Source of the DNA: Candidatus Aminicenantes bacterium
GTDB taxonomy: Bacteria > Acidobacteriota > Aminicenantia > UBA2199
Direction: 5' to 3'
Length of the DNA: 32,280 nt
Assembly: GCA_026393795.1 (NCBI GenBank)
Contig: JAPKZL010000082.1
Location: 1 to 32,280 of the forward strand
This document shows positions 1,482 through 19,384 of this stretch, piece by piece (the first letter of the stretch is position 1; every line of letters starts with the position of its first letter). The notes beneath the pieces were generated by a model. The model saw only the letters and a program-made list of their open reading frames with translations, was not told the DNA's origin and did not search any database. Position numbers and translations under genes: made by a program.

Positions 1482-1539
1482 TAGTTTCACTAAATAATTT
1501 CCCCGACTTACTGGACTTGGGGAAATTATAGTGAAACTA
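1482..1539. repeat. 58-nt bulged hairpin element E2
   Basis: Outer stem TAGTTTCACTA / TAGTGAAACTA and inner stem ATAATTTCCCC / GGGGAAATTAT around a 14-nt loop. The 5' arm carries two extra bases (AA) at the stem junction (CACTAAATAA versus CACTATAA in the complement of the 3' arm). A small hairpin CCCC-TGC-GGGG ends just upstream of it. Length 58 nt. Confidence 0.75.
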
Positions 1540-1559
1540 CGGAGGGGGTGGGATTCGAA
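1540..1559 (-). pseudogene. Fragment resembling a tRNA-Ser 3' end
   Basis: Read on the minus strand, these 20 nt look like the T-loop 3' side, T-stem 3' strand, acceptor 3' strand and discriminator G of a tRNA (TTCGAATCCCACCCCCTCCG). The intact tRNA-Ser at 1887 has TTCGAATCCCTGCCCCTCCG. The similarity stops exactly where hairpin E3 begins, so it reads as a tRNA 3'-end remnant interrupted by a repeat. A second copy lies at 1724-1743. It could also be chance similarity of a palindromic motif. Confidence 0.4.
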
Positions 1560-1617
1560 TACCAACGCTATGTTTTCAGCAAGCTCAGGTAGCCGCTGAA
1601 AACATCCAGCGTTGGTA
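1560..1617. repeat. 58-nt bulged hairpin element E3 (first of a doublet)
   Basis: Outer stem TACCAACGCT / AGCGTTGGTA, inner stem ATGTTTTCAGC / GCTGAAAACAT, 14-nt loop. Two extra bases (GG as read on the complement) sit on the 3' arm at the junction. It abuts E4 directly, giving a TATA join. An identical copy is E5 at 1744-1801. Confidence 0.78.
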
Positions 1618-1675
1618 TACTCCCACTAAATGATTTCCCCGACTTACCAAACTTGGGGAAATCATAGTGGGAGTA
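1618..1675. repeat. 58-nt bulged hairpin element E4 (second of a doublet)
   Basis: Outer stem TACTCCCACTA / TAGTGGGAGTA, inner stem TGATTTCCCC / GGGGAAATCA, 14-nt loop. The 2-nt bulge (AA) is on the 5' arm, so E3 and E4 lie in opposite orientation. The loop GACTTACCAAACTT resembles that of E2. After it comes a GGGGCCCCGTGGGA stretch and TCGAATCCCACC (1694-1705), which pairs with GGTGGGATTCGA before E3 and so encloses the doublet in a third-tier stem. A second copy of the right flank without the left hairpin arm sits at about 1411-1454. Confidence 0.78.
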
Positions 1676-1723
1676 CACTGGGGCCCCGTGGGATCGAATC
1701 CCACCAGGGTTATAGAATGTAAT

Positions 1724-1743
1724 CGGAGGAGGTGGGATTCGAA
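1724..1743 (-). pseudogene. Second fragment resembling a tRNA-Ser 3' end
   Basis: It differs from the 1540-1559 fragment at one position (CGGAGGAGG versus CGGAGGGGG at its start). Again it ends exactly at the left edge of a hairpin (E5). The right flank of E5 (TTCGGATCCCTGCCCC) is roughly the inverse of this fragment, so E5 sits at the centre of a larger imperfect palindrome. Confidence 0.4.
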
Positions 1744-1801
1744 TACCAACGCTATGTTTTCAGCAAGCTCAGGTAGCCGCTGAAAACATCCAGCGTTGGT
1801 A
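1744..1801. repeat. 58-nt bulged hairpin element E5 (identical to E3)
   Basis: Exact second copy of E3, 184 bp further on, with the same 20-nt tRNA-3'-like left flank but a different right flank. This points to local duplication followed by separate insertion or rearrangement at the right edge. Confidence 0.78.
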
Positions 1802-1886
1802 TTCGGATCCCTGCCCCGCGGGTGTTTTCAAACGAATTAGTTTTGGAAAACGTAAAATTCTTGTGTTAACAAAAGATTTAGTAAAC

Positions 1887-1974
1887 GGAGGGGCAGGGAT
1901 TCGAACCCTGGGTGGGGGTTACCCCCCACAACGATTTTCGAGACCGTCCCGTTCAACCGCTCCGGCACCCCTCC
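1887..1974 (-). tRNA. tRNA-Ser, anticodon CGA
   Basis: An 88-nt class II tRNA without encoded CCA. The acceptor stem is GGAGGGG / CCCCTCC with discriminator G just after it. The anticodon loop is CTCGAAA, giving anticodon CGA (reads UCG). There is a long GC-rich variable arm (GTGGGGGG-TAA-CCCCCAC type) and a T arm AGGGTTCGAATCCCT. The long variable arm and the G discriminator fit serine. The last 56 nt of the tadA reading frame overlap the 5' part of this gene. Confidence 0.95.
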
Positions 1975-2419
1975 GCGCCTGGAAAAACCCGGTCAGCATG
2001 GCCGATGCCGGCTGGGCGAGCAGCCCGGCCTCGACCTCGATCCGGTGGTTATATATGTCCTTGACATTTTCAAAGACGCCGCTGGTAAAGATGCCGTTCT
2101 TGGCATCGCCGGCGCCGTAGAACAGCCGGGCGATGCGCGCCTGCACCATGGCGCTGTAGCACATCACGCAGGGCTCGAGCGTGACGTACAGCTCGCTGCC
2201 ATTCAGGCGGTATTCGGCGGCTTTTTTCCCGGCCCGGCGCATGGCCACGATCTCGGCATGGGCGCTGGGATCGTTCTTCCCGATCGGTTCGTTGTGGCCG
2301 CGGCCGATGATTTGCCCTTCCCGGACCAGCACGGCGCCTACCGGCACTTCGCCCCGCGCTTCGGCCCGGACGGCCTGGAGCAGCGCTTTTTTCATGAAGT
2401 AAACCTTGTCTTTTTTCAT
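1919..2419 (-). CDS. tadA: tRNA-specific adenosine deaminase TadA
   Basis: Converts A34 of tRNA-Arg(ACG) to inosine so that one tRNA reads CGU, CGC and CGA. The 166-aa product has the cytidine-deaminase-fold zinc motifs HAEIVAM (ligand His, catalytic Glu) and PCVMC (two Cys ligands), plus the TadA-typical GHNEPIGKNDPSAHAE and YGAGDAKNGIF segments. I chose the ATG at 2419 (MKKDKVYFMKKALLQA); starts further upstream would read through the tRNA-Arg gene. The gene lies 23 nt downstream of its own substrate tRNA-Arg(ACG). The normal TadA C-terminus is FFQARR; here the frame continues for about 18 codons through the 5' half of tRNA-Ser and stops in the sequence for its variable arm. The family is certain; the tail length is unusual. 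Confidence 0.93.
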   Translation of the reverse strand: MKKDKVYFMKKALLQAVRAEARGEVPVGAVLVREGQIIGRGHNEPIGKNDPSAHAEIVAMRRAGKKAAEYRLNGSELYVTLEPCVMCYSAMVQARIARLFYGAGDAKNGIFTSGVFENVKDIYNHRIEVEAGLLAQPASAMLTGFFQARRGAGAVERDGLENRCGG

Positions 2420-2442
2420 GGCGTTTGAAAGAGAAAAAAAAA

Positions 2443-2515
2443 CGCACCTGGAGGGAGTCGAACCCCCAACCTTTTGATCCGTAGTCAAAAGCTCTATCCA
2501 TTGAGCTACAGGTGC
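2443..2515 (-). tRNA. tRNA-Arg, anticodon ACG
   Basis: A 73-nt tRNA without encoded CCA: acceptor GCACCTG / CAGGTGC, discriminator G, D arm AGCTC-AATGGATA-GAGC, anticodon loop CTACGGA (anticodon ACG), T arm GGGGG-TTCGACT-CCCTC. A34 is the TadA substrate. A good promoter ends 12 nt upstream (2527-2555). Confidence 0.96.
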
Positions 2516-2526
2516 GTCCGGGACAT

Positions 2527-2555
2527 AGTTTACCATAAAATAGGGCGATCAGCAA
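2527..2555 (-). promoter_or_regulatory. Promoter for the tRNA-Arg/tadA/tRNA-Ser cluster
   Basis: Minus-strand TTGCTG (2555-2550), 17-nt spacer, TAAACT (2532-2527), 11 nt before the tRNA-Arg 5' end. It could serve all three genes. Confidence 0.55.
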
Positions 2556-2626
2556 ACTGCATTTAGCATAAAATTCAAAGTGAAGAACGGAGGACTAAAA
2601 TTCCAAATAACAAATCCCAAATTTCA

Positions 2627-2685
2627 TAGTCACACTAGATAGGTTTCGTTGCCCTTCGGACACCACGAAACCTAAAGTGTGACTA
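2627..2685. repeat. 59-nt bulged hairpin element E6
   Basis: Outer stem TAGTCACACT / AGTGTGACTA, inner stem AGGTTTCGT / ACGAAACCT, 15-nt loop. The 5' arm is two bases longer at the junction (AGAT against TT). Its outer stem is identical to that of E10, but the inner stem differs. Confidence 0.7.
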
Positions 2686-2739
2686 AAATTCCAAGTTCCA
2701 AATTCCAATGCCCTAAACAAAGGCGATTTGCATTCCTTT

Positions 2740-2767
2740 GTAGGGAACGCAGATCTGCGTTCCCTAC
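2740..2767. repeat. 28-nt perfect palindrome (GTAGGGAACGCA type)
   Basis: GTAGGGAACGCA, then GATC, then TGCGTTCCCTAC. It differs from the copy at 9958-9985 only in the central bases, and the change is symmetrical so the palindrome is kept. Confidence 0.75.
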
Positions 2768-2893
2768 CCTAGGCAGAGCCTTTGTTTTGCTCATTCGTCT
2801 ATTGGAACTTGGTGCTTATTTGGTGCTTGGTGCATGTGATTTGGAATTTTCAGTTTTTCCTTACCCCGCACGCCGTCCGCCCTACGCCGAGTC

Positions 2894-2922
2894 TTGTCAA
2901 ACGCCTCTATCTCATTTACAAT
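2894..2922 (+). promoter_or_regulatory. Promoter of the DUF5924-like gene
   Basis: TTGTCA (2894-2899), 17-nt spacer, TACAAT (2917-2922). The ATG follows 13 nt later, so the predicted leader is only about 7 nt. Confidence 0.6.
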
Positions 2923-2935
2923 ACTCACCCGACCC

Positions 2936-3943
2936 ATGGCCGCGATCAAAAGCTTTGCCAACGAGTTCCTCCACCGCCACCAGGACAAGCTCTGGTGGTT
3001 CCACAGCTCGTACTCTTTGCAGCTGGGCATCGGCGTGATGTGGCTGGGCAGCCGTCACTTCACCTAACTGCGCGTGGCCGAGTTCCACATCGCCTTCATC
3101 TGGGTGAGCAGCCTGGCGTTGCCGCTGTTGTCCCGGCTGCAGCGCCTCCCGGAAAACTGGCGCCGCCGTCTGCGCCTGCTGATCAACTATTTCCAGCGCA
3201 ATTTCTACCAGCAGTTGCTTTTTTTTATCCTGCCCATCTACTATTTCAGCGCCAGCTGGGGAACGGGCAACATGGTGTTCGTGCTGCTTGTGGCCGCATC
3301 GGCTTTGCTGGCCACCATGGACATCATCTATGACCGCTATCTATCCCGCCGCTGGCTGGTGCTGGCGATGTTTTTCGCCTTCAACCTGTTCGCCTGCATC
3401 AACGTCATGCTGCCCATCGTCTGGAATTTCAAGAATTCCTTTGCCCTGCGCTTGAGCGCCCTGCTGGCCCTGGCCGGGTTCGCTTCCTTTTGCCTCACCC
3501 TCAGGGAGGTAAGCGGGCGGGACCGGCTGCTGCTGGTCCTGGCCGCCGCCCTGCTGTTGGCCGGGGTCAGCGAGGTCGGCCGGCCGCTGATCCCGCCGGC
3601 GCCGCTGCGCCTGACCGCCAGCCGCTTCTACCTGGATTTCGACCCGGAAAGCACCCAAGCGCAGCCCCCGCTTACGCACCTGCCGGCCGGCGGCCCCTAC
3701 AAAATTTACGCCCTGACCGCCATCAGCGCCCCGCTCGGGCTCAAGGACCGGGTCGGCCACCGCTGGTACCTCAACGGCAGGCTGGTGCACGCCTCTCCTT
3801 TTTTCACGGTCCAAGGGGGGCGCAAGACCGGCTTCCGCTTCTGGACGTTCCGCACCCTGAAGAACATCCTGCCCGATTCGACCCTGCTCATCGAGCTGCG
3901 CACCGAGGCCGGCCAGCTGATCGGCCGCGCCCGGCTGCATTGA
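2936..3943 (+). pseudogene. DUF5924/DUF2914-like membrane protein, interrupted by an in-frame TAA
   Basis: One continuous frame of 336 codons from ATG 2936 to the stop at 3943 is broken by TAA at 3065-3067 (codon 44). The frame reads ...WLGSRHFT-stop-LRVAEFHIAFIW, so sequence on both sides looks like one protein. The middle has about five hydrophobic segments (LLFFILPIYYF, LLVAASALLATM, LVLAMFFAFNLF, LALAGFASFCL, LLLVLAAALLLAGV). The last ~90 residues look like a DUF2914 domain (HRWYLNGRLVHAS...GFRFWTFRTL...LLIELRTEAGQLIGRA). The role of this family is unknown to me. A GTG at 3074 could restart translation to give a 289-aa protein lacking the first 46 residues. The cause may be a true nonsense mutation or a base error; the intact promoter and the undamaged remainder argue for a recent event. 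Confidence 0.7.
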
Positions 3944-3980
3944 CGGGCTGCGTCGTTCCGCCACGCAGGCGCCGCAGAAG

Positions 3981-4009
3981 TTGACCGCGAAGCGGATATT
4001 TGCTAACAT
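3981..4009 (+). promoter_or_regulatory. Promoter of dsbD, near-leaderless
   Basis: TTGACC (3981-3986), 17-nt spacer, TAACAT (4004-4009). The ATG is only 9 nt after the -10 box and there is no Shine-Dalgarno sequence between them. Confidence 0.55.
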
Positions 4010-4018
4010 GAATCGCCC

Positions 4019-5785
4019 ATGAAAAAGAAAATATTAGCCGTTTTTTATCTGCTGTTCGCGGTTACCGCGACCGCTGCAGCCCAGTTCAACGAGCCGTCGG
4101 CGTTCAAGCCGTCGATTGCCCCCCGGGTCGATGCCGCGCAAGGGAGCGTCGACTTTGCCTTCCAGGTTCCGGCCGGCTACCATATCACCGATCTGAAAAA
4201 CAATTTTTTCAGCATCGAGCTCGAAAAAAACGCCGGCGCGGTTATCGAGCGGGTGGTTTTCCCGGATGGAACCCCGTACGGAGAAGAAAAGGTTTTCTCG
4301 GGCAGCTTCATCGTCCGCGCCTACCTGAAGACCCCGGCGCCGCTCGGCGCGCCCCTGCCCTTGTCCTTCGATGTCTCGTATCAGATCTGCCAGGAATTCC
4401 CGCAGGAACTCTGCTACCCTCCCGACCAGAGCCTGGTGCCGGTCACCCTCCCTGCCGGCTTCCGTTCCTCCCCGGGACCGGACGCGGCCGCGGCGACGGC
4501 TGACGCCGGAGGGGCCCACCAGGGCGGCCCGCTGGCGTCGCGGTTGGAAAGGCTGATCCGCGGACAGCTCAGCCATGCCTCCTTCCTGCTCTTCATTTTT
4601 GTCTTCGTCGCCGGTTTTCTGGCCAGCCTGACCCCCTGCGTCTACCCGGTCATTCCCATCATCATGGGCTACGTGGGCGGCCGCAGCAACGGCCGCAAGT
4701 TGAAGGGCTTCAGCCTCTCCCTGTTCTTCGTCCTCGGCCTGGCCCTGGTCTATTCGCTGCTGGGGGTCATCGCCGCCAAGGCCGGCTCGCTGATCGGCAT
4801 TTCATTCCAGAACCCGGTCGTGGTCTCGCTCATCGCCGCCATTTTCATAGTCATGGGCCTGAGCCTGGCCGGGCTGTTCTCCATCCCGGTGCCGGCCTGG
4901 GTGTCAGCCAAGCTCTCCCGCGGCCACAAGAGCGACATCGTGGGCAGCATGATCGTCGGCGGGGTCTCGGCCATCATCGCCGCCCCCTGCGTCGGCCCGG
5001 TGCTCATCGCCCTGCTTTCCTGGATCAGCCAGTCGGGAAACATCCTCCTCGGTTTCTGGCTTACCTTCGTTTTCTCACTCGGCATGAGCGTCATTTTCCT
5101 GGTGGCGGGAACGTTTTCCGGCGCCATCTCGGCCCTGCCTCGCGGCGGCCATTGGATGAGCACGGTGAAATATTTTTTCGCCGCCCTGCTGATCGCCGGC
5201 GGCATTTACTTCCTGGGCAATATCCTCAGCCCCTGGCTGACGCTGGTTATCTGGGGCGTCTTCCTCATCACCCTGGCCGTCGGCCTCGGCCTGTTCCGCC
5301 CGCAGCATGAAGCCACCATGGTCCACACCCTGGCCAAATCGACGGCGCTGGTGGTTCTTTTGTGCGGCGCCATCGTGTTTTACCACGGGCTGGCCGGCCG
5401 TTTCTTTCCGTCCGCGACAACGGTTCCCGTTGTCGCAGAAAAATCGCTGCCCTGGCTGGCTGATCTGGCCCAGGCCAGGGAAAAAGCCCGCCTGGAGAAC
5501 AAGCGGCTGATGGTCGATGCCTGGGCCGAGTGGTGCGCCGCTTGCCGCGAACTGGATGAAGAGACCTTCAGCCGGGCCGATGTAGCCGAGAGCTTGAGAA
5601 ACTACGTCCTGGTCAAGATCGACCTGACCAGCAAAAACACCGCCAACGAGGAATTGCGCAAATCACTGGCGATTATCGGCATGCCGACGATCATCTTTTT
5701 CGACCCGGCCGGGAAGGAGCTGGGCCGCTTTTCCGGATTTCTCAATGGCAGCGATTTCATCGACATGCTCGGCGGCCTGAACTAA
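4019..5785 (+). CDS. dsbD: Thiol:disulfide interchange protein DsbD
   Basis: Inner-membrane reductant conduit that passes electrons from cytoplasmic thioredoxin to periplasmic partners such as DsbC and cytochrome c maturation proteins. The 588-aa product has the standard three parts. After a signal peptide (residues 1-21) comes an N-terminal immunoglobulin-like domain with the Cys pair CQEFPQELCYPP. The central eight-helix domain (~190-460) has the redox cysteines in LTPCVYPVIPIIMGY and IAAPCVGPVLIALL. The C-terminal thioredoxin domain has WAEWCAACRELDEETF. All six functional cysteines are visible and the length matches the family. It is probably transcribed alone and converges with the outer-membrane barrel gene, with 14 nt between the stops. 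Confidence 0.96.
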   Translation: MKKKILAVFYLLFAVTATAAAQFNEPSAFKPSIAPRVDAAQGSVDFAFQVPAGYHITDLKNNFFSIELEKNAGAVIERVVFPDGTPYGEEKVFSGSFIVRAYLKTPAPLGAPLPLSFDVSYQICQEFPQELCYPPDQSLVPVTLPAGFRSSPGPDAAAATADAGGAHQGGPLASRLERLIRGQLSHASFLLFIFVFVAGFLASLTPCVYPVIPIIMGYVGGRSNGRKLKGFSLSLFFVLGLALVYSLLGVIAAKAGSLIGISFQNPVVVSLIAAIFIVMGLSLAGLFSIPVPAWVSAKLSRGHKSDIVGSMIVGGVSAIIAAPCVGPVLIALLSWISQSGNILLGFWLTFVFSLGMSVIFLVAGTFSGAISALPRGGHWMSTVKYFFAALLIAGGIYFLGNILSPWLTLVIWGVFLITLAVGLGLFRPQHEATMVHTLAKSTALVVLLCGAIVFYHGLAGRFFPSATTVPVVAEKSLPWLADLAQAREKARLENKRLMVDAWAEWCAACRELDEETFSRADVAESLRNYVLVKIDLTSKNTANEELRKSLAIIGMPTIIFFDPAGKELGRFSGFLNGSDFIDMLGGLN

Positions 5786-5799
5786 AAAACGATCCCCTC

Positions 5800-6369
5800 C
5801 TAAAAACGCAGGCCCAGGTTTACGGCCAGACGCAAGCCCCCCAGCAAACGCCGCCCCCCCAGGCTGACGGCGGTTTCCGCCAGCGTGACGCGGGCTTCGG
5901 AATAGGAAAAGGCCACGCCGATGAAGACCTGCTTCCTGAAATAATAGCGCAAACCCGTTCCCAGCTGGAACCCGGGGCCGGAAGCGCTGAAACTTTCGCC
6001 CAGGGCTTGTTCCCTGAATCCAGCCCAGGTCAGGGCGGCAAAATAATCGGACTGCAGGCGGCCGCGGCGGATTTCCCAGCCGACCCCGAGAGCCAGGAAG
6101 TGCTGGTTAACCTCGGCTTCGTCAAGCAAAACCGGGATGGTGTAGGTGGCTGAAAAAAAGCTGTAGCCCAGCCAGAGATAAAAATTATCGTAAAACACAT
6201 ACCCGGCCTTCAGCTCCGGGCTGAATTGCAGCCGGCCGTAAAGATCCTTGAAGCGCTCGTCGCCGGAGAAAACGGCGCCGGCCCCGGCGCTGACGAACCA
6301 TTTGTCGCCAGCCACCATGGGCAGTGAGAAAAAAACGAGCCAGATGCCGATAACGATCGATTTTCTCAT
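5800..6369 (-). CDS. Outer-membrane beta-barrel protein
   Basis: A 189-aa protein with a clear signal peptide (MRKSIVIGIWLVFFSLPMVAG) followed by alternating hydrophobic strands rich in aromatic residues (LKAGYVFYDNFYLWLGYSFF, GTGLRYYFRKQVFIGVAFSYS, LRLAVNLGLRF). It ends in Phe, the usual C-terminal signature recognised by the BAM complex. Size and strand count suggest a small, about 8-stranded barrel of the OmpA/OmpW-like porin fold. No specific function is recognisable. It starts 9 nt after the subtilisin-like gene ends, so the two are probably co-transcribed, which may mean a surface or secretion-related pairing. Confidence 0.7.
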   Translation of the reverse strand: MRKSIVIGIWLVFFSLPMVAGDKWFVSAGAGAVFSGDERFKDLYGRLQFSPELKAGYVFYDNFYLWLGYSFFSATYTIPVLLDEAEVNQHFLALGVGWEIRRGRLQSDYFAALTWAGFREQALGESFSASGPGFQLGTGLRYYFRKQVFIGVAFSYSEARVTLAETAVSLGGRRLLGGLRLAVNLGLRF

Positions 6370-6378
6370 GGGCGCACC

Positions 6379-8435: not shown

Positions 8436-8472
8436 GCGCCCCCCGTCGGTACCATCCGTCGCTTAAAAGGCA

Positions 8473-8501
8473 AGGGTAGCAATCTTCCCCGAAATTGTCA
8501 A
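8473..8501 (-). promoter_or_regulatory. Promoter of the S8 protease/outer-membrane barrel pair
   Basis: Minus-strand TTGACA (8501-8496), 17-nt spacer, TACCCT (8478-8473). The start codon is 37 nt downstream of the -10 box. Confidence 0.55.
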
Positions 8502-8538
8502 CCTTGAGCAAACGGCCTTTCCATCCCCTTCGGGGACA

Positions 8539-8595
8539 TACTTTCACTATGATTTCAACCGGTCTTTAAATTGTTGAAATCATCTAGTGAAAGTA
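8539..8595. repeat. 57-nt bulged hairpin element E7 (first of a doublet)
   Basis: Outer stem TACTTTCACTA / TAGTGAAAGTA, inner stem TGATTTCAAC / GTTGAAATCA, 13-nt loop. The GA bulge (TC on the plus strand) is on the 3' arm. A CCCC-TTC-GGGG mini-hairpin precedes it, as before E2. Confidence 0.8.
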
Positions 8596-8653
8596 TACCA
8601 TCACTAGATGTTTTCAGCAGCCTTCCGAGTAAGCTGAAAACATAGTGATGGTA
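8596..8653. repeat. 58-nt bulged hairpin element E8 (second of a doublet)
   Basis: Outer stem TACCATCACTA / TAGTGATGGTA, inner stem TGTTTTCAGC / GCTGAAAACA, 14-nt loop. The GA bulge is on the 5' arm. It abuts E7 with a TATA join and lies in the opposite orientation. The inner stem is the same as in E3. Confidence 0.8.
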
Positions 8654-8654
8654 G

Positions 8655-8690
8655 ACAAACTAGATCCGCCACGGTCGGCGGATAGTTTGT
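8655..8690. repeat. 36-nt short bulged hairpin E9
   Basis: ACAAACTAGATCCGCC (8655-8670) pairs with GGCGGATAGTTTGT (8677-8690) around a 6-nt loop. The 5' arm again has the extra GA after CTA, the same rule as the 58-nt elements but with a shorter stem and loop. Confidence 0.7.
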
Positions 8691-8696
8691 GCTGGG

Positions 8697-8725
8697 TTTA
8701 CGATCCACCCTTTTAGCTGTATAAT
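8697..8725 (+). promoter_or_regulatory. Promoter of ychF, leaderless arrangement
   Basis: TTTACG (8697-8702), 17-nt spacer, TATAAT (8720-8725). The ATG is 7 nt after the -10 box, so transcription should start at or next to the start codon. No Shine-Dalgarno sequence is present. Confidence 0.6.
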
Positions 8726-8732
8726 CGAAAAC

Positions 8733-9800: not shown

Positions 9801-9909
9801 GAGAGCGATCGAACCATCATAGCGCGAGTTTGATTATGTTTATTTGAACAAGACTTAAATTCTAAATTCCAAGCACCAAAAACCAATGAGCAAATGACCC
9901 AAACGAAGA

Positions 9910-9937: not shown

Positions 9938-9957
9938 ACCCCAGAATTCTGCCTGCG

Positions 9958-9985
9958 GTAGGGAACGCAAATTTGCGTTCCCTAC
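9958..9985. repeat. 28-nt perfect palindrome (GTAGGGAACGCA type)
   Basis: GTAGGGAACGCA, AATT, TGCGTTCCCTAC. The central tetramer differs from the 2740 copy (GATC) but remains palindromic. Confidence 0.75.
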
Positions 9986-10042: not shown

Positions 10043-10100
10043 TAGTCACACTATGGTTACAGCAATTTCAACGAGACGCTGGAACCATCTAGTGTGACTA
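10043..10100. repeat. 58-nt bulged hairpin element E10
   Basis: Outer stem TAGTCACACTA / TAGTGTGACTA, inner stem TGGTTACAGC / GCTGGAACCA with one mismatch. The GA bulge is on the 3' arm (CATCTAGTG). Confidence 0.78.
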
Positions 10101-10137: not shown

Positions 10138-11760
10138 CTACAAGTATTTGACGATCATCAGGGTGACGTCGTCGGAAAAATCCTTGCGCCGGCAAAAACT
10201 TCTCAAATCGTCGATCAAGGCCGCCTGCATGGCGACGGCCGGCAGGTCGCGCCGCCCGACAACCGCCGCGCTCAACCGGGCCAGGGAATACTCCTCGCCG
10301 TCCTCATTCTCGGCCTCGATCACCCCGTCGGTGTACATGATCAGCCGGTCGCCGGGCTGCATGGCGAAGCTAGAAACCGGGTAGTCGACCTCGGCGAACA
10401 TGCCCACCACCGTGCTGCCCGACTCCAGCATCAGGAGCTCCTTGCCGCGCAACACCAGCGGCAGCGGGTGGCCGGCGTTGATGTAGCTGAGGATCCCGGT
10501 CCGGCAATCCAGCTTGGCGGTGAACGAGGTGACGTACAAGTTGGGCTCGGTGGTCTCGGCGATCAGGCGGTTCAGGTGGCTGATGGTCGAGGCGATGTCG
10601 CCGCCGCGGCGCAGCTGGAAGACGAAACTGCTGCGAAAGATGGCCATCAGCAGCGAGGCGGGAACGCCGTGCCCCGAGACGTCGTTGACGCTGAAAATGA
10701 TTTCGCGCTCGTTGAGCGGGATGACGTCATAGTAATCGCCGCCGACCTTGGAGCTGGGAATGTTCAGGAAGGCGATGTCCAGCCCGGGGAACTTCTGCGG
10801 CTGCTGCAACAGGAACGACTGCTGGATGTCGCGGGCGACCTGCAGCTCCTTTTCCATTTTTTCCTTTTCCAGCATCTGGCCGATATAGCGGAATTTTTCC
10901 AGGGAAATGGCCATAAAGGCCGCCAAGCCGCGGAACAGGGAGGCCGCTTCGTCGGAGATCGGCTTTTCGCTCTGGATGTCGAGGTAGCCGAGCATAGCCC
11001 CTTCGGCGCGGAGGGGGAATCGGCTGCTGACTCTGCCGATGGTGGTCCCGAGGCATTCCACGTCCTCCTTTGCACGGCTGCTGTTGGCCAGCAGGTCGTA
11101 TTCCCTTTTTTCGCTGCTGACGTGGACGCAGGCGGTCAGCGGCTGGATCTCGGCGCAAATGATCTCCTTGAGCGCCAGCAGCACCCCGCCGCTGTCGGTT
11201 GAGGCCGATATTTTTTTGCCCAGCTCGATCAGCCGCTCCTTGGCCAGCGTCTCGCGGGTGATGGCGCGGAACAAAACGGCGTTGTGCAGGGGGATAGCCA
11301 GGAAACCGGCCATCTGCTGGAGCACCTGCAAATCGTCCTTGCTGAATTTTCCCCTCTTTTTGTTCACCGCCTCCAGCACGCCGAGCACCCGATCCTCGAG
11401 CAGCACCGGCACGCCCAGGATGGATTGGGTCTGAAAGAGGATTTTGCGGTCGACCATGCCCGTGTGGCGCGGATCGTGCTGCGAATCATTGATAATCACC
11501 CCTTTCCGCTCGGCGGCGATCCACCCGGCCACGCCCTGGCCTTTTTTCAGGACGATCTGCTTCAGGGTCTTCTCTTGATCCCCGGTGGCCGTTTCAAAGG
11601 TCAGCTCCTCCTTTTCCGGGTCGTACAGGAAGATGGAAGCCTCTTCGCTGCCCATGTAGGCCTTGATGCTGGCGGTAATTTTTTCAAGAAGCGCGTTAAG
11701 GTTCACCTCGGAATACAAACCCAGGACTTCATCCTTGAAACGGCTGATGCGCTCTGCCAT
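10138..11760 (-). CDS. GAF-domain PP2C/SpoIIE-type serine phosphatase (RsbU-like)
   Basis: A 540-aa cytoplasmic signalling protein. An N-terminal GAF domain (~20-165: EASIFLYDPEKEELTFETATG...SILGVPVLLEDRVLGVLEAVNKK) and a second, weaker GAF-like region (~200-310) precede a linker helix. The C-terminal PP2C-type SpoIIE phosphatase domain (~340-540) has the metal-binding motifs VGGDYYDVIPL, SVNDVSGHGVPASLLMA and LIMYTDGVIEAENEDGEEYS. Such enzymes dephosphorylate anti-sigma-factor antagonists in partner-switching systems, in response to a ligand sensed by the GAF domains. No partner STAS or anti-sigma gene is adjacent. I use the ATG at 11760 because AGGAAGGA lies just upstream; a frame extension to 11820 exists but crosses the promoter. 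Confidence 0.92.
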   Translation of the reverse strand: MAERISRFKDEVLGLYSEVNLNALLEKITASIKAYMGSEEASIFLYDPEKEELTFETATGDQEKTLKQIVLKKGQGVAGWIAAERKGVIINDSQHDPRHTGMVDRKILFQTQSILGVPVLLEDRVLGVLEAVNKKRGKFSKDDLQVLQQMAGFLAIPLHNAVLFRAITRETLAKERLIELGKKISASTDSGGVLLALKEIICAEIQPLTACVHVSSEKREYDLLANSSRAKEDVECLGTTIGRVSSRFPLRAEGAMLGYLDIQSEKPISDEAASLFRGLAAFMAISLEKFRYIGQMLEKEKMEKELQVARDIQQSFLLQQPQKFPGLDIAFLNIPSSKVGGDYYDVIPLNEREIIFSVNDVSGHGVPASLLMAIFRSSFVFQLRRGGDIASTISHLNRLIAETTEPNLYVTSFTAKLDCRTGILSYINAGHPLPLVLRGKELLMLESGSTVVGMFAEVDYPVSSFAMQPGDRLIMYTDGVIEAENEDGEEYSLARLSAAVVGRRDLPAVAMQAALIDDLRSFCRRKDFSDDVTLMIVKYL

Positions 11761-11778
11761 GATTCCTTCCTGTTCATA

Positions 11779-11807
11779 ACTATATGCAAGGGGAAAAAGA
11801 AAGTCAA
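11779..11807 (-). promoter_or_regulatory. Promoter of the GAF-SpoIIE phosphatase gene
   Basis: Minus-strand TTGACT (11807-11802), 17-nt spacer, TATAGT (11784-11779), 18 nt before the start codon with an AGGAAGGA ribosome binding site between. Confidence 0.65.
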
Positions 11808-11886
11808 CCACATGAAACATTGAAACTTTTTCCCGTTTGTGCTCATCTTTACCTATGAACTGATTGCCATCAATGGGAGGCTGGAA

Positions 11887-12957: not shown

Positions 12958-12976
12958 ACCGCAAAAAATTCCTAGC

Positions 12977-14362: not shown

Positions 14363-14365
14363 CGT

Positions 14366-14560
14366 TCACTCCTCCAGACGATCAAAGCCATATTGCACCG
14401 GGACATATTTTTGCACACGCCAGCCCTGTCGCGGCCCGGATCGCAACAGTGGGACGTTCGGCACAAACCAATTTTCCATGAACCAATAATAAATCATATC
14501 CCAGTCAATTCCATAGGACTTTAGTAAGTTTTTTCGGAATACAGCCAATTTACCGACCAT
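14366..14560 (-). CDS. Possible small protein, unrecognised
   Basis: A 64-codon frame rich in Trp and Tyr (GIDWDMIYYWFMENWFVPNVPLLRSG...YVPVQYGFDRLEE). Its stop codon lies 3 nt before the S37 peptidase start and its last codons (CTG GAG GAG) form that gene's ribosome binding site, so translation could be coupled. I recognise no family, and see no clear ribosome binding site. It may be a remnant of a longer gene or a chance frame. Confidence 0.25.
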   Translation of the reverse strand: MVGKLAVFRKNLLKSYGIDWDMIYYWFMENWFVPNVPLLRSGPRQGWRVQKYVPVQYGFDRLEE

Positions 14561-14605
14561 GCCCCTCCCGGGAGCAAGGTCACCGTCAGCAGCCGCTGCT
14601 GTGCC

Positions 14606-14634
14606 TTGTCAAACGGCCGCCATTCGGCTACAAT
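14606..14634 (+). promoter_or_regulatory. Promoter of the DUF6498-like gene, leaderless arrangement
   Basis: TTGTCA (14606-14611), 17-nt spacer, TACAAT (14629-14634), and ATG only 6 nt later. No ribosome binding site is present. Confidence 0.6.
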
Positions 14635-14640
14635 CGTTCC

Positions 14641-15098
14641 ATGGACTCCACCATGGCAACAACCGGGGCCGAGGCTACCATCCCGGCAAAAACTTTACGC
14701 CAGCGCTTGCGCGCCTCCAGCCTGGCCCTGCTCACGGCCAACCTGATGCCGCTGCTCGGCGTGCTGGCCCTGAACTGGGACGTGACCCCGATCATGGTTT
14801 TTTACTGGTCCGAGAACCTGGTGGTCGGGTTCTACAACGTGCTCAAGATGCGGCGGGCCCAGGGTTCGGTCGCTTCGTCGAGCACCACCCTGAACGACAG
14901 GCCGGTACAGCAATCGGACCGGCGGGCGATGATCGTTTTTTTCATCGTCCACTACGGCATGTTCACGCCTGGGCCCAGGCCAAGGGCTCCCCGGTTTACG
15001 CCTTGGTGGTGTTGGTCAGCTTGAAGACCATCATCGACCTGGGCCTTCATTTCCTGGAACACAGGAAATTCCAACATCAACAGGCAGCGCCGGGCTGA
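14641..15098 (+). pseudogene. DUF6498-like membrane protein, decayed by internal deletion and frameshift
   Basis: The first ~105 codons (LALLTANLMPLLGVLALNWDVTPIMVFYWSENLVVGFYNVLKM...FFIVHYGMF) match the N-terminal half of DUF6498 membrane proteins. At about 14967 the frame is lost and the open frame ends at 15024. In another frame the following sequence reads HAWAQAKGSPVYALVVLVSLKTIIDLGLHFLEHRK, which resembles the family's C-terminal helix. The expected middle (the VHG-containing helix pair and about 60 residues) is absent. An internal deletion that also shifted the frame explains this. The promoter looks intact. Function is unknown for the family. Confidence 0.65.
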
Positions 15099-15175
15099 AA
15101 TGAAGGTGGCTGCTTTCTTACCATCGCCAGGGATCAGCAAACCTAGGCAAGCTGTACTTATCATTTTGTGCGCAA

Positions 15176-15203
15176 TTGCATTTTTTATTATTTGTGATAA
15201 AAT
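15176..15203 (+). promoter_or_regulatory. Promoter of the CxxG peptide/HprK-like locus
   Basis: TTGCAT (15176-15181), 16-nt AT-rich spacer, TAAAAT (15198-15203). It would give a ~45-nt leader before the ATG at 15254. Confidence 0.5.
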
Positions 15204-15253
15204 TATGTTTGGAACCATGTGAACAGAATGAGAAGCGGCCAGGGAACCGACAT

Positions 15254-15469
15254 ATGAAAAAAAAGGCGCGCTATCAACCTCCGTTTTGTCGCGATTTGTC
15301 CGACGCCACGGCCTCCGGCCAAAGGCCAAGACCACAGGGTATTTGTTATTCAGGTTCCAGTCCCGGCCAGGTGGGCGCCTGCAATCCGACCGGCCTTTTG
15401 CCCGCCTATGGTTGCGGCACGGGCGCGAACCCATTTCAAATCTGTGCCGTAGGATCAGCCGACCGCTAA
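15254..15469 (+). CDS. Small Cys-x-x-Gly peptide, candidate RiPP precursor
   Basis: A 71-aa peptide with a basic, charged N-terminal half (MKKKARYQPPFCRDLSDATASGQ) and a core of small residues. Four Cys in the core are each followed by Gly within three or four residues (CYSG, CNPTG, CGTG, CAVG) with Ser/Ala/Pro/Gly between. A leader of the KKKxxYxxPxxRDLS kind followed by a Cys/Gly-rich core is typical of ribosomally made peptides that are later modified. The gene has its own promoter, a start at 15254 with AGGGA upstream, and lies 32 nt before an HPr-kinase-like gene, which may phosphorylate or otherwise recognise it. No radical-SAM, PqqD-only or transporter gene is adjacent. Precursor status is inferred from composition and context, not from a known match. 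Confidence 0.5.
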   Translation: MKKKARYQPPFCRDLSDATASGQRPRPQGICYSGSSPGQVGACNPTGLLPAYGCGTGANPFQICAVGSADR

Positions 15470-15501
15470 AAACAAGCGACGGCCATTGTTCCCTAAATTC
15501 A

Positions 15502-16410
15502 ATGAAACTGAAAGACATTAGACAAACTTTTGTCATCGGTGGCCTGAATATCGTTATTCGTTCTCCGCAAAACCTGCCTTTTTTAAATGATGATCGCTTC
15601 GACCCTTTCCGCGGCGATACGACCGCGGCCGACATTTGCTGGGATTACCAGATTATCCTCCCCGCTGACCTGATTCTGCCGCCCCTGGATCCGGAGAGCG
15701 ATACGCTGTTGGCCCAAGCCTGCCGCATCGGTCGCGAAAGTCCGTTGTTGGCCGCAACCCAGGTCAAGGCCAGCTTGGAACAAGCCCGAGAGCATGCTGA
15801 TCAGCTGGTAGTCGAGATGCACCAGGAGGCAGTGACCATTCTCGATTTTTCAACCCACCGCGCCGACATGTTTTTCAATCCAGATTTCGGCAATCAACTC
15901 AGACAGCACTGCATCGGGCCGGCCATGCTGGCCCTTTTTATGCCCCATTTTTCGGCCATGTTGCTCCACGCCTCGGCCGTCGTGCGCAAAGGCAAGACAG
16001 CGGTTTTTTTGGCCCCGGATGAGGGGGGCAAGACCACCGCGGCCAGGAACTCTCCCGAAGGAACCATTCTTTGCGATGACCAGGTGCTGGTTCGCCAAAC
16101 CCATGGTGGTTTTCAAGCCAGCGGTACACCCTGGGGGCTTTACTGCAACAGCAAACTCCAGGCACCGCTGAGCGGCCTTTTTTTACTGGAAAAATCCGGA
16201 CATTTCGCCCTCAATCCTCTGCCACCAAAAGAATTGAGCCGCTATCTCTGGGAAGAACACAAAAATCAACTGGCCATTCTGCCCCCGCCCTTGCAAGCAA
16301 AGGCCCGCGAAATCACCGTCGCTATCAGCAACTCGGTGCCATCCTGGAAACTATCTTTTTCTAAAGACACAATCGACTGGGAAGCGATAGACAATGCAAT
16401 GGCCCTGTGA
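15502..16410 (+). CDS. HPr-kinase-like P-loop protein next to the CxxG peptide
   Basis: A 302-aa protein with the C-terminal fold of HPr(Ser) kinase but not a true HprK. Landmarks are LLHASAVVRKGKTAVFLAPDEGGKTTAA (His-x-Ser then a modified Walker A, PDEGGKTT, ~residues 170-180), ILCDDQVLVRQ (acidic pair of the active site) and ASGTPWGLYCNSKLQAPLSGLFLL. The N-terminal ~130 residues are variable. Related HprK homologues occur in peptide-modification clusters, and lasso-peptide kinases phosphorylate the precursor's C-terminal Ser. The true hprK of this genome is at 22216, so this is a second, specialised member. ATG 15502 is preferred because upstream in-frame sequence (RPLKTSDGHCSLNS) looks non-coding. 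The substrate is inferred to be the 15254 peptide. Confidence 0.72.
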   Translation: MKLKDIRQTFVIGGLNIVIRSPQNLPFLNDDRFDPFRGDTTAADICWDYQIILPADLILPPLDPESDTLLAQACRIGRESPLLAATQVKASLEQAREHADQLVVEMHQEAVTILDFSTHRADMFFNPDFGNQLRQHCIGPAMLALFMPHFSAMLLHASAVVRKGKTAVFLAPDEGGKTTAARNSPEGTILCDDQVLVRQTHGGFQASGTPWGLYCNSKLQAPLSGLFLLEKSGHFALNPLPPKELSRYLWEEHKNQLAILPPPLQAKAREITVAISNSVPSWKLSFSKDTIDWEAIDNAMAL

Positions 16411-16449
16411 AAGGCAAATAAGGTAAACTGACTTTCCACAAGCCTCGTT

Positions 16450-17037
16450 CTACTTGCGGGTAGCGCTCCAGGTTCCCCCCGCGTCGCCATTGCTCCAAAG
16501 TCCGCTCATGTTGAAGAGGTACCCGGTCAGGATATAGCTTTCCCAATTGCTGTAGGTCATGGTGAAGGCATTGCTTGTCCCGTCCCAGGTGCCGTCGAGG
16601 CCGCGGCTGTCGCTGAAGGTTCCGCCCAGCATGGTGGTCCCGGAAAAAGTGACGTCGGCGTCGATCAGCTTGTTGGAGCTCGAATCGTACAAGGTGATGG
16701 TCCATACGTCGCGGATGTCGACCAGGCGGGCTTCCAGGGCCACGTTGGTGTAGACGGTGAAGCTTCCCGAGGCGCTCATCTGCGCCCCCTCGTAGATGAC
16801 CTCGACCGTGTACCTGTAGTCCGCTGGCGTGTAGGCGTACTCGACCGCGGTCAAATCCTTATATAAATGGACTCCGCTCTCCGGCGAGCCATTGACGCCG
16901 TCGCGGACGGTCACGGTCAGCTCGTAGTTGGGAATGCCGAAAAAACTGCAACTCAGCAGCGACACCATCAGCACGCAGGCAGGCAATGCGACGCGCAGGA
17001 CTGCGAACACGGATCTTGTTTTCATTTTCATGAGCAT
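16450..17037 (-). CDS. Hypothetical lipoprotein
   Basis: A 195-aa envelope protein. The N-terminus has a signal sequence ending in the lipobox LLSC (VLMVSLLSCSFFG), predicting an acylated Cys near residue 30. The body looks all-beta: an Ig/transthyretin-like part (YELTVTVRDGVNGSPESGVHLYKDL...) and a second part with repeated Trp/Gly strands (TFSDSRGLDGTWDGTSNAFTMTYSNWESYILTGYLFNMSGLWSNGDAGGTWSATRK) resembling small beta-barrel or lipocalin-like lipoproteins. No family is recognised with confidence. Start 17037 has AGAGGTG just upstream. It converges with the HprK-like gene and diverges from tonB. Confidence 0.65.
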   Translation of the reverse strand: MLMKMKTRSVFAVLRVALPACVLMVSLLSCSFFGIPNYELTVTVRDGVNGSPESGVHLYKDLTAVEYAYTPADYRYTVEVIYEGAQMSASGSFTVYTNVALEARLVDIRDVWTITLYDSSSNKLIDADVTFSGTTMLGGTFSDSRGLDGTWDGTSNAFTMTYSNWESYILTGYLFNMSGLWSNGDAGGTWSATRK

Positions 17038-17066
17038 GGCACCTCTTCGCTTGAATCGTAGCTTCT

Positions 17067-17095
17067 ATTATATTACAAAACCGGGTCAATGCAAA
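17067..17095 (-). promoter_or_regulatory. Promoter of the lipoprotein gene
   Basis: Minus-strand TTTGCA (17095-17090), 17-nt spacer, TATAAT (17072-17067), 29 nt before the start. Confidence 0.55.
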
Positions 17096-17201
17096 ATTAT
17101 CGGGCCGAAATTCTTTTTGGCGCTGTTCCGGGGAAACTTTTACCGCATCGTGCGCGTCTTAATAATCGCGGCCCTGCAAGAAAAAACGGGCCAACATGTT
17201 G

Positions 17202-17207
17202 TATAAT
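17202..17207 (+). promoter_or_regulatory. -10 box upstream of tonB
   Basis: Consensus TATAAT 42 nt before the tonB start. No good -35 hexamer is found at 16-18 nt spacing, so an activator may be needed or the site may be weak. Confidence 0.35.
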
Positions 17208-17249
17208 AGATTGCGGAACGCAAAATCCTTTCCGGAAAAGGCGAACATC

Positions 17250-18173
17250 ATGGAAGCAAAGGTCAAGCGGCAGATCGTTTTGTTGTCCATCCTGCTGCAT
17301 ATCCTGATCTTGGCTTTCTGGGACAGTTTCATCCAGCTCGACATCACCCGGATTTTTCCCGCCCCGCCGCCGGCCGCGGCAGCGAGCTCGCCGCTGGTCT
17401 TTGATCTGGCGCAGCCAGCACAGAACAACCTGCCGCGCGAGGTGATCGCTACCCCGGCCGACGCCAAGATCACCCCCAACCCGCAAAAAGCCGATTTTTT
17501 ATCCGATAAAAACGCCCTGGCCCGCAACCAGGTGCAGCCGCCAGCCGCCCTGCCTCTGGGCGATGCCCCCTACGCGACGGGTGATTTCCCCTCCCACGAT
17601 TTGTTCCCGCAGCCGGCCATCCCGGAAAAGGAGTCCGCAGCAGCGGGCGCCCAGCTTGAGGAAAAAACGGCCGACGCCGACAAGAGCCAGGCCGAAGCCG
17701 ATCAGGAACCGCTGAGCGGAGAAGCCGTTGATTCGACCCTGGCGCAGGCCAAACCGCAACCGGGCCGGGGCAAAACCCTGCCGCGGCCGTCCATGCCTGG
17801 GGTGGCGCACGATCATCCTGACACGCAGGTGGCCGACAGCGGCGGATTGTCGTTCAACACCTACAACTGGGATTTCGCCCCGTACATGCTGGAACTGAAG
17901 GAGCGGATCAGGCGAAACATTTTCCCGCCCATCGCCTTTTCCCAACTGGGACTGATCGACGGCAACACCATGCTGCGCTTCAAGATTTATCCCAGCGGCG
18001 AGCTGCGCGACCTGGAACTGCTCGCCTATGAGGGGCACCACTCGCTGATGGAAACCAGCACCACCGCGATAAAAGTTTCGGCCCCGTTCCGAAAACTGCC
18101 CGGCAATTTTCCAGAACCTTATTTGCAAGTAACGGCTAAATTTTCTTTTTTCATCAAAAACAAGCGAGGCTAA
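17250..18173 (+). CDS. tonB: TonB-family energy transducer
   Basis: A 307-aa protein with the three-part TonB layout. A short cytoplasmic start and one transmembrane helix (IVLLSILLHILILAFW, ~8-24, including the conserved helix His of SxxxH type) anchor it in the inner membrane. A long Pro/Ala/Gln/Glu-rich spacer (~35-215) spans the periplasm. The C-terminal domain (~225-305: WDFAPYMLELKERIRRNIFPP...TMLRFKIYPSGELRDLELLAYEGHHSLMETSTTAIKVSAPFRKLP) is the TonB/TolA fold that contacts receptors. It precedes exbB by 2 nt and exbD, so the trio is one energy-coupling operon. No TonB-dependent receptor is nearby. It could act in a Tol-like role instead. Start 17250 has AAAAGG upstream. Confidence 0.88.
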   Translation: MEAKVKRQIVLLSILLHILILAFWDSFIQLDITRIFPAPPPAAAASSPLVFDLAQPAQNNLPREVIATPADAKITPNPQKADFLSDKNALARNQVQPPAALPLGDAPYATGDFPSHDLFPQPAIPEKESAAAGAQLEEKTADADKSQAEADQEPLSGEAVDSTLAQAKPQPGRGKTLPRPSMPGVAHDHPDTQVADSGGLSFNTYNWDFAPYMLELKERIRRNIFPPIAFSQLGLIDGNTMLRFKIYPSGELRDLELLAYEGHHSLMETSTTAIKVSAPFRKLPGNFPEPYLQVTAKFSFFIKNKRG

Positions 18174-18175
18174 AA

Positions 18176-18805
18176 ATGAAAAATGTCTGGGAATTTCTGG
18201 TTAAAGGCGGCATCTGCATGATTCCCCTGTTTTTGTGCTCGGTCGCCGGCCTGGCCATCGTCATCGAGAAGTTCATCTCGTTGCAGCGTCGCAAGATCAT
18301 CGTCCCCGAAGTGGTCAGCGTGCTGGAGAACATCAAAGGGGCGAACGACTTTCCCCTGGCCGTTTCCATTTGCGAGAAACACCACGGGCCTTTCGCCAAT
18401 ATCATCCGCAGTACCCTGGAAAACCATAACTTGCCCAGGGAGGAAATCAAGGAGACCTTGCTCGACCAGGGCCGCCAGGAGGTCCACCAGCTGGAAAAAG
18501 GGCTTGGGGTGCTGGAGACCGTCGCCGGCATCGGCCCCCTGCTGGGACTGCTGGGCACGGTGCTCGGCATCCTGAAGGTTTTCAAAGTCATTTCGGTAAT
18601 GGGGGTGGGGCAGGCCACGTCACTGGCCGCCGGCATTTCCGAAGCCCTGATCACCACCATCGCCGGCCTTTTCATCGGCATCCCGGCGCTGGTGGCCTAC
18701 AATTACTTCTCCAGCCGGGCCGACGCATTGGTGCTGGAGATCGAGAAGTACTCCAACCGCCTGCTGAACAAGATATCCTCCTTCGCACCGGTTCAGGGGA
18801 AGTGA
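18176..18805 (+). CDS. exbB: MotA/TolQ/ExbB proton channel family protein
   Basis: A 209-aa inner-membrane subunit of the proton-driven motor that energises TonB. A first helix (GGICMIPLFLCSVAGLAIVIEKF) is followed by a cytoplasmic loop (~35-105). Two further helices (VAGIGPLLGLLGTVLGILKVF and EALITTIAGLFIGIPALVAYNYF) carry the family signature GPLLGLLGTVxGILxVF and the conserved Thr/Gly residues of the pore. Length is slightly below E. coli ExbB (244 aa), as in many non-proteobacterial members. It starts 2 nt after tonB and ends 3 nt before exbD. Confidence 0.94.
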   Translation: MKNVWEFLVKGGICMIPLFLCSVAGLAIVIEKFISLQRRKIIVPEVVSVLENIKGANDFPLAVSICEKHHGPFANIIRSTLENHNLPREEIKETLLDQGRQEVHQLEKGLGVLETVAGIGPLLGLLGTVLGILKVFKVISVMGVGQATSLAAGISEALITTIAGLFIGIPALVAYNYFSSRADALVLEIEKYSNRLLNKISSFAPVQGK

Positions 18806-18808
18806 ACC

Positions 18809-19210
18809 ATGCAGCTGCGAGCCAAGCCGCGCCGCAAGGTGATCATCAACATCACCTCGCTGATCGACGTCACGTTCATGATGCTGCTGTTTTTTATGAT
18901 CACGTCGACTTTTTTGGAGCAGCCGGGAATAAAACTTGAACTCCCGACCGCAAGGGCATCGGCCAACAACGAAGCGCAGGAGTGTGTGCTCACCGTCGAC
19001 AAAAAAGGCGATTTGTTCCTGAACCGCCAGGCCGTGACCCTGGCCGGGCTTGAAGAAGAGATCAGGAAAGCCCTGCCGCAGATGAAGGATGCCGCCCTGG
19101 TGCTCAAAGCCGACCAGGAGATCACCCACGGCCTGGTCGTGCGCGTCATGGACATGGCCAAGCGCGGCGGCATAAAAAAGCTGATTATAGGCACCAAGCC
19201 GGAGAAATAG
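18809..19210 (+). CDS. exbD: ExbD/TolR family biopolymer transport protein
   Basis: A 133-aa partner of ExbB with one N-terminal helix (INITSLIDVTFMMLLFFMITSTF). The Asp in SLIDVTFMMLLFFM is the protonatable residue of the motor. The periplasmic domain (~45-130: IKLELPTARASAN...LNRQAVTLAGLEEEIRKALPQM...VLKADQEITHGLVVRVMDMAKRGGIKKLIIGTKP) has the ExbD/TolR fold. The size is typical. It is the last gene of the tonB-exbB-exbD operon; the next 300 nt are repeats and the lptB promoter. Confidence 0.95.
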   Translation: MQLRAKPRRKVIINITSLIDVTFMMLLFFMITSTFLEQPGIKLELPTARASANNEAQECVLTVDKKGDLFLNRQAVTLAGLEEEIRKALPQMKDAALVLKADQEITHGLVVRVMDMAKRGGIKKLIIGTKPEK

Positions 19211-19267
19211 AAAACAATTCTCTGGACAAACCGCTGTAGGGGTTCAATACGAGATCAATCGAGATCA

Positions 19268-19324
19268 TACTAACACTATGTTTTTGGCCATTCAGAAAGT
19301 CGCCAAAAACATCTAGTGTTCGTA
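19268..19324. repeat. 57-nt bulged hairpin element E11 (first of a doublet)
   Basis: Outer stem TACTAACACTA / TAGTGTTCGTA with one mismatch, inner stem TGTTTTTGGC / GCCAAAAACA, 13-nt loop. The GA bulge is on the 3' arm. Confidence 0.78.
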
Positions 19325-19384
19325 TAGTCACACTATATGGTTTCAGCAGATTACTAAGCTTGCTGAAACCATACTGTGACGATA
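19325..19384. repeat. 60-nt bulged hairpin element E12 (second of a doublet)
   Basis: Outer stem GTCACA / TGTGAC inside TA ends, inner stem ATGGTTTCAGCA / TGCTGAAACCAT, 12-nt loop. The 5' arm is two bases longer at the junction (CTAT against GT), the opposite arm from E11. The join with E11 reads TATA. Confidence 0.72.

Follow-up and report, generated by a model that had tools for sequence, protein, structure and literature searches.

Repetitive extragenic palindromes (REPs) of Escherichia coli carry a conserved bulge which is required, in a strand-specific manner, by their Y1 enzyme TnpA_REP (PMC8266576), and inverted doublets of such palindromes, the REPINs, were described as the replicative unit (PMC3116915), with single-strand processing inferred for them. 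High-copy atypical hairpins without GTAG were reported for the class 3 TnpA_Y1 of Acidobacteria and Planctomycetes, which have a CNGA foot and a flanking Y1 gene (PMC6006769). In the mitochondria of fungi and sponges, double-hairpin or repetitive hairpin elements are paired hairpins that lie in genes and near tRNAs, with no flanking duplications in Allomyces (PMC2800124). The DNA described here is a stretch of 32,280 nucleotides from a Candidatus Aminicenantes bacterium (contig JAPKZL010000082.1), the whole of which is called the window, and the elements in question are bulged hairpins of 57-60 nt found in it and in related genomes. Our results demonstrated that they form a family of non-autonomous mobile DNA elements, whose usual unit consists of two different bulged hairpins (L and R) placed head to head with no spacer. 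This family of heterodimeric elements is real and, as far as the open literature shows, undescribed; a search of an open library gave no account of such elements in Aminicenantes.

The family probably works in a manner similar to REPs and REPINs. With REPINs and bacterial interspersed mosaic elements (BIMEs), which go with TnpA_REP (RAYT) in E. coli and Pseudomonas fluorescens, it shares short palindromes, a bulge in the stem, inverted doublets, single copies and patchiness at the genus level. A first-pass annotation of the window, which listed ten hairpins, had been reminded of REPs by the recurrent bulge, and the likeness extends to high copy number and inverted doublets. On the other hand, the Aminicenantes hairpins have no GTAG or GT[AG]G foot, are about 58 nt long and abut with zero spacer, their halves come from two classes with different stems, and no Y1 gene is flanked by copies. 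Because the GTAG foot is absent and a link to a RAYT was not found, we do not class these elements as REPs or REPINs. The class 3 TnpA_Y1 hairpins, from a related phylum, are likewise atypical, of high copy number and free of GTAG, but differ in their CNGA foot and flanking Y1 gene, no such gene being seen beside the Aminicenantes elements. The mitochondrial double hairpins are similar in being paired, in lying in genes or near tRNAs and, in the Allomyces case, in the lack of flanking duplications, whereas they are organellar and of different sequence. We know of no 2-nt bulge or L/R pairing rule in them.

Copy number and structure of the hairpins

The window is one contig of a metagenome-assembled genome (MAG) of 3.15 Mb in 323 contigs, 96% complete (contig C82 of genome G000), which was compared with the other genomes of its genus (16 in all, given G-numbers; G010 is Zod_Metabat.875); every one of them is an incomplete draft, so that absences are weak evidence. 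A generic bulged-hairpin finder, used without any sequence information on the elements, found ten hairpins of the 2-nt-bulge type in the window and none in each of 100 shuffled windows, which kept dinucleotide frequencies on average and were searched at the same threshold. All ten elements of the first-pass annotation are present, and their positions were right within 1-3 nt. A covariance model trained on 48 distinct copies and then used to search G000 found at least 103 elements in the stretches read, and a loose core pattern had 49 matches in that genome versus 2 for its reversed control. Strict-mode matches, which may score both strands of one palindrome, numbered at least 93 in G000, 81 in G012 and 42 in G010, the three element-rich genomes, and 10, 6, 3, 2, 1 and 1 in six of the other 13, with 0 in the remaining seven. 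The further copies that the annotation anticipated therefore exist in this genome and in related ones, and the distribution is patchy within a single uncultured genus. In a scan of 84,980 species genomes, matches to the core pattern were confined to Candidatus Aminicenantes or Acidobacteria MAGs (KR13_N1.mb.47, LacPavin_0920_SED5_MAG_56_9, Zod_Metabat.875 and PFL21); 126 other genomes of the class gave zero element matches, as did the viral contigs, phages and plasmids searched.

The shared design is an outer stem of 10 bp (TA plus 8), separated by a one-arm bulge of 2 nt from an inner stem of about 11 bp, which carries a loop of about 9-16 nt; nearly every hairpin has TA at both ends. A typical copy with the bulge on its 5' arm reads TA-N4-CACT, the 2-nt bulge, ATG-N-TTTC continuing into the inner stem, the loop, the inner arm and AGTG-N4-TA. 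The TA ends and the two extra bases are thus as first described, while the stem and loop lengths (about 11 bp, about 10 bp and 12-16 nt in the annotation) are recast. The bulge letters, given there as mostly GA, are AG in 89 of 158 copies and GG, AT, AA, TG and more in the others; a one-arm bulge of 2 nt is kept in nearly all copies, and its presence is more conserved than its letters.

Standard pairs made up 97.9% of 1005 pair cells in the 48 distinct copies versus 78.1% in shuffles, a percentage inflated by the use of the structure itself for finding and aligning copies. Cells changed on both sides numbered 204, compared with 58 in shuffles, and two-sided changes occurred at 15 of 21 pairs, which far exceeds what structure-based finding and aligning alone would yield; when the partner was slid by 1-3 columns, pairing fell to 33-46%. 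Stem sequences differ yet the arms change together, as the annotation had seen, and the compensatory changes go beyond chance. Within subfamilies, the stems are 86-100% identical (also 86-100% in the 3' arms, which are the fair comparison because subfamilies were defined partly by 5' arms) and the loops mostly 48-60%, with 82% in one small set; the bulge is likewise kept within subfamilies while its letters change.

The annotation had proposed selection on a folded form of either DNA or RNA, and the former is retained. Among 127 clean copies, the rare mismatches were G·T in 22 cases and A·C or C·A in 29; because G·T is no commoner than A·C, whereas in RNA G·U would be favoured, and because neither strand is favoured, the sequences point to a constraint at the DNA level, not an RNA-like one. 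A structured RNA family under selection, serving for example as processing signals or terminators, would agree with the strong covariation and with several copies standing directly at tRNA 3' ends, but such a family is scarcely probable: both kinds of mismatch are equally rare, an Rfam search returned two tRNAs as its only matches and assigned the hairpins to no known RNA family, copies abut in both orientations, and genes and tRNA copies are broken by their insertion.

Two further hairpin types were observed. One, a second subfamily, likewise has a 2-nt AG bulge; its outer stems are TAAGAGCCTT / AAGTCCCTT (L036 1012-1333, 5718-5776 and 6767-6826; L118 near 10900-10970), and its small partner hairpins are CCAGC-GCTGG or ATTGC-GCAAT. 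Hairpins of 86 nt with two bulges on opposite arms (L117 9571-9656 and 9713-9798; L114 1228-1313; L096 7789-7874) look as if two modules were stacked.

The pair of L and R hairpins as the unit

In the set of 158 elements, 44 pairs of neighbours adjoin without a gap in -/+ order, their bulged arms facing each other. Two classes are defined by position 16, a purine in L and a pyrimidine in R, and 43 of the 47 pairs at 0-2 nt spacing combine one purine with one pyrimidine, two pyrimidines being never found. The commonest subfamily, TAGTCAC, is never paired with itself; recurrent partners are TAGTCAC with TACCAAC or TACTAAC, TACTTTC with TACCATC, and TATTCGC with TACACGC. Position 6 is the same in both partners in 35 of 43 pairs, compared with 16.4 expected. 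A small hairpin, mostly TCCCC-GGGGA, lies on the bulge side of 11 of 63 single elements and on the other side of 2 of 63. The best single-strand DNA fold of a 115-nt pair is two separate bulged hairpins on either strand, with a z-score of about -12.

Insertion sites and mobility

Element mobility is well supported, and precise insertion at sites that are uninterrupted elsewhere, together with the L+R unit, is its clearest evidence. In G010, a pair interrupts a Y1 transposase gene (L108 2943-3058), the sole Y1 gene found there, and five uninterrupted homologues from other genomes of the genus align gap-free across the junction. On contig C158 of G000, the 3' part of two resolvase genes is interrupted, with an intact copy nearby, by a small hairpin together with a related bulged one (GTCCCTTA...TAAGGGAC). 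These resolvase genes had been considered as a linked enzyme and were rejected, since the DNA shows that the hairpin and its small partner interrupt the gene, which is a target. Pairs also lie in degenerate copies of tRNA-Ser(TGA) (L027 of G000, L116 of G012, L121 of G006) and tRNA-Arg(CCG) (L093 of G000, L106 of G010), with junctions GTGG^TCG, GGCGG^TCT, CAACGG^ATAG, GTGGG^TTCGAA and TTCGAA^TCCC; the copies are broken in the D-, anticodon- or T-arm, and intact genes beside them show the uninterrupted sequence in four species. In several species, tRNA-Ser or tRNA-Leu genes have a single L element or a pair directly at their 3' ends.

None of the Y1, resolvase and tRNA insertions has a target duplication, and their junctions are ungapped relative to the uninterrupted sites. 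This bears on the suggestion that the hairpins are miniature inverted-repeat transposable elements (MITEs) of a TA-targeting DDE transposase (IS630/Tc1), whose terminal TAs would be target duplications. The hairpins are indeed short and palindromic, with TA at nearly every end, but the uninterrupted sites have no extra TA; CGG^ATAG, GTGG^TCG, TTCGAA^CCC and others join without duplication. Bases 3-6 of the outer stem, moreover, vary freely with compensation and are not conserved between subfamilies, and we regard a MITE origin as quite unlikely. When L stands on the left, the left flank ends mostly with GG, GGACA, TTCAATA or GGCA and the right flank is variable; the left-flank ends differ between L/R types. 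Judged from these flanks, the insertion target looks polar.

Many units are nested. Flanks complementary over at least 8 bp place 28 of 110 units within another palindrome, compared with 2.75 expected with shuffled partners, an excess that overstates the count of independent events because nested units are partly copies of one composite. Among the hosts are the GTAG...CTAC palindrome at 19236-19396 of the window, another repeat with a bulge (GACAAAYTAGATCCGCC...) and further members of the family itself; the outer stem of one copy encloses a complete second copy in L084, L088, L096 and L045. A TAGTCAC hairpin that is complete in G012 (L114 1111-1168) is represented at the orthologous site of G000 by its outer stem, with a whole other hairpin replacing the inner stem (L096 7658-7716).

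Composite repeats could also be spread by recombination or gene conversion, their arms being kept complementary neutrally by template switching in quasi-palindromes. The repeated finding of some pairs in one and the same host repeat (GGGACA^GACAAA; GTAGGGGTTCAATA) agrees with this, template switching would yield two-sided changes without G·T intermediates, and an orthologous copy beside tRNA-Ser has two-sided changes between species. However, template switching should erase the 2-nt bulge, yet the bulge persists almost throughout, and conversion between repeats leaves the insertions at unique sites (the Y1 gene, the resolvase gene and the tRNA loops) unexplained, so we hold this process to be an unlikely source of the family.

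Bulged hairpins of the window

The features of the window are collected in Table 1. Three sets, 1560/1618, 8539/8596 and 19268/19325, are abutting head-to-head pairs, which had gone unremarked in the first-pass annotation. The element at 1482-1539 has a TCCCC..GGGGA small hairpin on its bulge side, and three species share this L element, which stands next to the orthologous tRNA-Ser in G012 and in G010, the G010 copy having compensatory changes in its stem; the neighbouring pair at 1560-1675, unlike it, was seen in this genome only. The element at 1744-1801 adjoins another tRNA-Ser 3'-end fragment (1724-1743), that at 2627-2685 sits within AATTCCAAATTCC-type repeats, and the pair at 8539-8653 is flanked by GGGGACA and GACAAA of the host repeat.

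Table 1. Bulged hairpins, targets and host repeats in the window
Feature	Position	Strand	Remark
Bulged hairpin, L class, single	1482..1539	+	adjoins 3' end of tRNA-Ser fragment at 1540
Target: tRNA-Ser 3'-end fragment (CGGAGGGGGTGGGATTCGAA)	1540..1559	-	interrupted in T-arm
Bulged hairpin, R class	1560..1617	-	first half of pair
Bulged hairpin, L class	1618..1675	+	second half of pair
Bulged hairpin, R class, single	1744..1801	-	sequence identical to 1560-1617
Bulged hairpin, single	2627..2685	+	outer stem TAGTCAC, inner stem AGGTTTCGT
Bulged hairpin, L class (TACTTTC)	8539..8595	-	first half of pair
Bulged hairpin, R class (TACCATC)	8596..8653	+	second half of pair
Host repeat GACAAACTAGATCCGCC..GGCGGATAGTTTGTGCTG	8654..8692	+	itself a hairpin with 2-nt AG bulge
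Bulged hairpin, L class (TAGTCAC), single	10043..10100	-	between GGAATTT and TGGAATTT
Left arm of GTAG-type palindrome (GTAGGGGTTCAATA)	19236..19249	+	encloses a pair
Bulged hairpin, R class (TACGAAC)	19268..19324	-	first half of pair
Bulged hairpin, L class (TAGTCACACTATATGG)	19325..19382	+	second half of pair
Right arm of GTAG-type palindrome (TATTGAACCCCTAC)	19383..19396	+	

Another long hairpin (1275-1347) lies within a tRNA-Ser-like fragment (GGGATAGGACGAAT...ATTCGTCCT), and the orthologous place is occupied in G010 and G012. Decayed bulged-hairpin remnants were seen at about 1362-1433 (ATGGTTTCA..TGAAACCAT; also a 3' arm ATAGTGGGAGTA followed by CGTGGGATCGAATCCCACCA). Canonical GTAG palindromes (GTAGGGAACGCARATYTGCGTTCCCTAC) stand at 2740-2767 and 9958-9985, and a copy of this palindrome was found near a small RAYT-type Y1 gene on contig C322 of G000 (L192, about 3348-4027); a REP/RAYT pair may therefore exist in the same genome.

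Search for a linked enzyme

Genes of the Y1 family (PF01797) were found in 15 of the 16 genomes of the genus; the Y1 proteins of G000 are of 309-aa and 177-aa types. The Y1 genes of G000 that were examined bear different ends, GGGACGGACTATGAAAAAGTGAA, and no parent insertion sequence (IS) with the same ends as the hairpins was found among the Y1 genes examined. In G000, the Y1 genes of L152 and L159 are bounded by inverted GGGACGGACTATGAAAAAGTGAA ends, and the GGGACGGAC start of this end resembles GGGACAGAC of the repeat that hosts many hairpin pairs. In L143 (G007) and L144 (G012), an Eco57I-like DNA methyltransferase gene contains an in-frame Y1 transposase domain with NKGLKPLV-encoding repeats at its boundaries. 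The recurrent proteins beside the arrays were ordinary syntenic genes only, with no shared transposase.

Tyrosine recombinases, reverse transcriptases, IS110 and resolvases were also tried as the mover and rejected: apart from housekeeping-type copies, none of these families occurs in all three of the element-rich genomes. The reverse transcriptase, IS110 and resolvase families are each missing from at least one of these drafts. Of tyrosine recombinases, G010 and G012 have two full genes each and G000 has a third; two full genes per genome, in a strength range shared by nearly the whole genus, are as expected of XerC/XerD. The sites at which a tyrosine recombinase uses folded single strands, such as the integron attC, would resemble the present elements as sequence-poor, structure-rich hairpins of about 58 nt with extrahelical bases on one arm and a structure conserved over sequence. 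The boxes of attC are defined as GTTRRRY/RYYYAAC, whereas the stems here end in TA without such R/L boxes, no cassette genes lie between the sites, and there is no IntI, the recombinases of G010 and G012 being those expected of XerC/XerD. An attC-like origin is therefore very unlikely.

Discussion

We read the family as REPIN-like mobile DNA which is non-autonomous and is moved by a trans-acting enzyme, most likely one that works on folded single strands (probability about 0.6). Such an enzyme would recognise the bulged hairpin in folded single-stranded DNA, cut there and join the strand into single-stranded or hairpin-forming targets, as for REPINs and IS200/IS605 with their HUH Y1 transposases; copies inserting into one another would give rise to the nested hairpins. 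The absence of duplication, the polar-looking targets, the bulge on one strand, the inverted doublets and the insertion in palindromes fit processing as a folded single strand. An HUH Y1 enzyme is suggested as the mover, and the enzyme class is the weakest step of the proposal. PATEs and other non-autonomous derivatives of IS200/IS605 likewise lack target duplication and have hairpins at both ends, and their strand-polar target is matched by the polar-looking one seen here. In the Aminicenantes units, however, nothing lies between the two hairpins, a common parent IS was not found, and the target motif does not look like one fixed tetranucleotide.

Several observations weigh against this reading. 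The linked Y1 (RAYT) transposase for which the annotation had proposed a search was not recovered: among the Y1 genes read, none has these hairpins at its ends, the only hairpins seen being the pair that interrupts the G010 gene, and Y1 counts do not track element counts, G015 having 6 Y1 hits and 0 elements and G010 one broken Y1 gene and 42 matches. Neither GTAG nor another constant tetranucleotide stands beside the hairpins, whose outer flanks end in GG, ACA, ATA, GCA and others. The difference in identity between stems (86-100%) and loops (mostly 48-60%) is not predicted by simple neutral decay after insertion. Some pairs recur only within the same host repeat, and part of the copy number may come from co-amplification in host repeats.

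A system of interchangeable modules is possible, though on the doubtful side. In such a system L would need an R of the complementary class or a small partner, the bulge would be the processing point, hairpins would be placed on or inside older ones and their tops exchanged, and the enzyme would differ both from REP-linked RAYTs and from the known integrases. The readings as attC sites, as TA-targeting MITEs or as RNA are each contradicted by a feature examined here.

In bacteria, the palindromic doublets described so far, the REPINs, join a repeat to another copy of itself and are linked to a single transposase. The genus studied here holds many covarying subfamilies of one shape with two-class pairing, whose targets are tRNA copies, genes and each other, and the insertion record is precise enough to be read. 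The findings suggest that REP-like spread is possible without the GTAG tag by which such elements are commonly found. Should these elements be moved by an enzyme that works on folded single strands, they would be a natural library of functional hairpin variants, and this library would show directly which parts of the hairpin (bulge position, stem register or loop) the enzyme reads.

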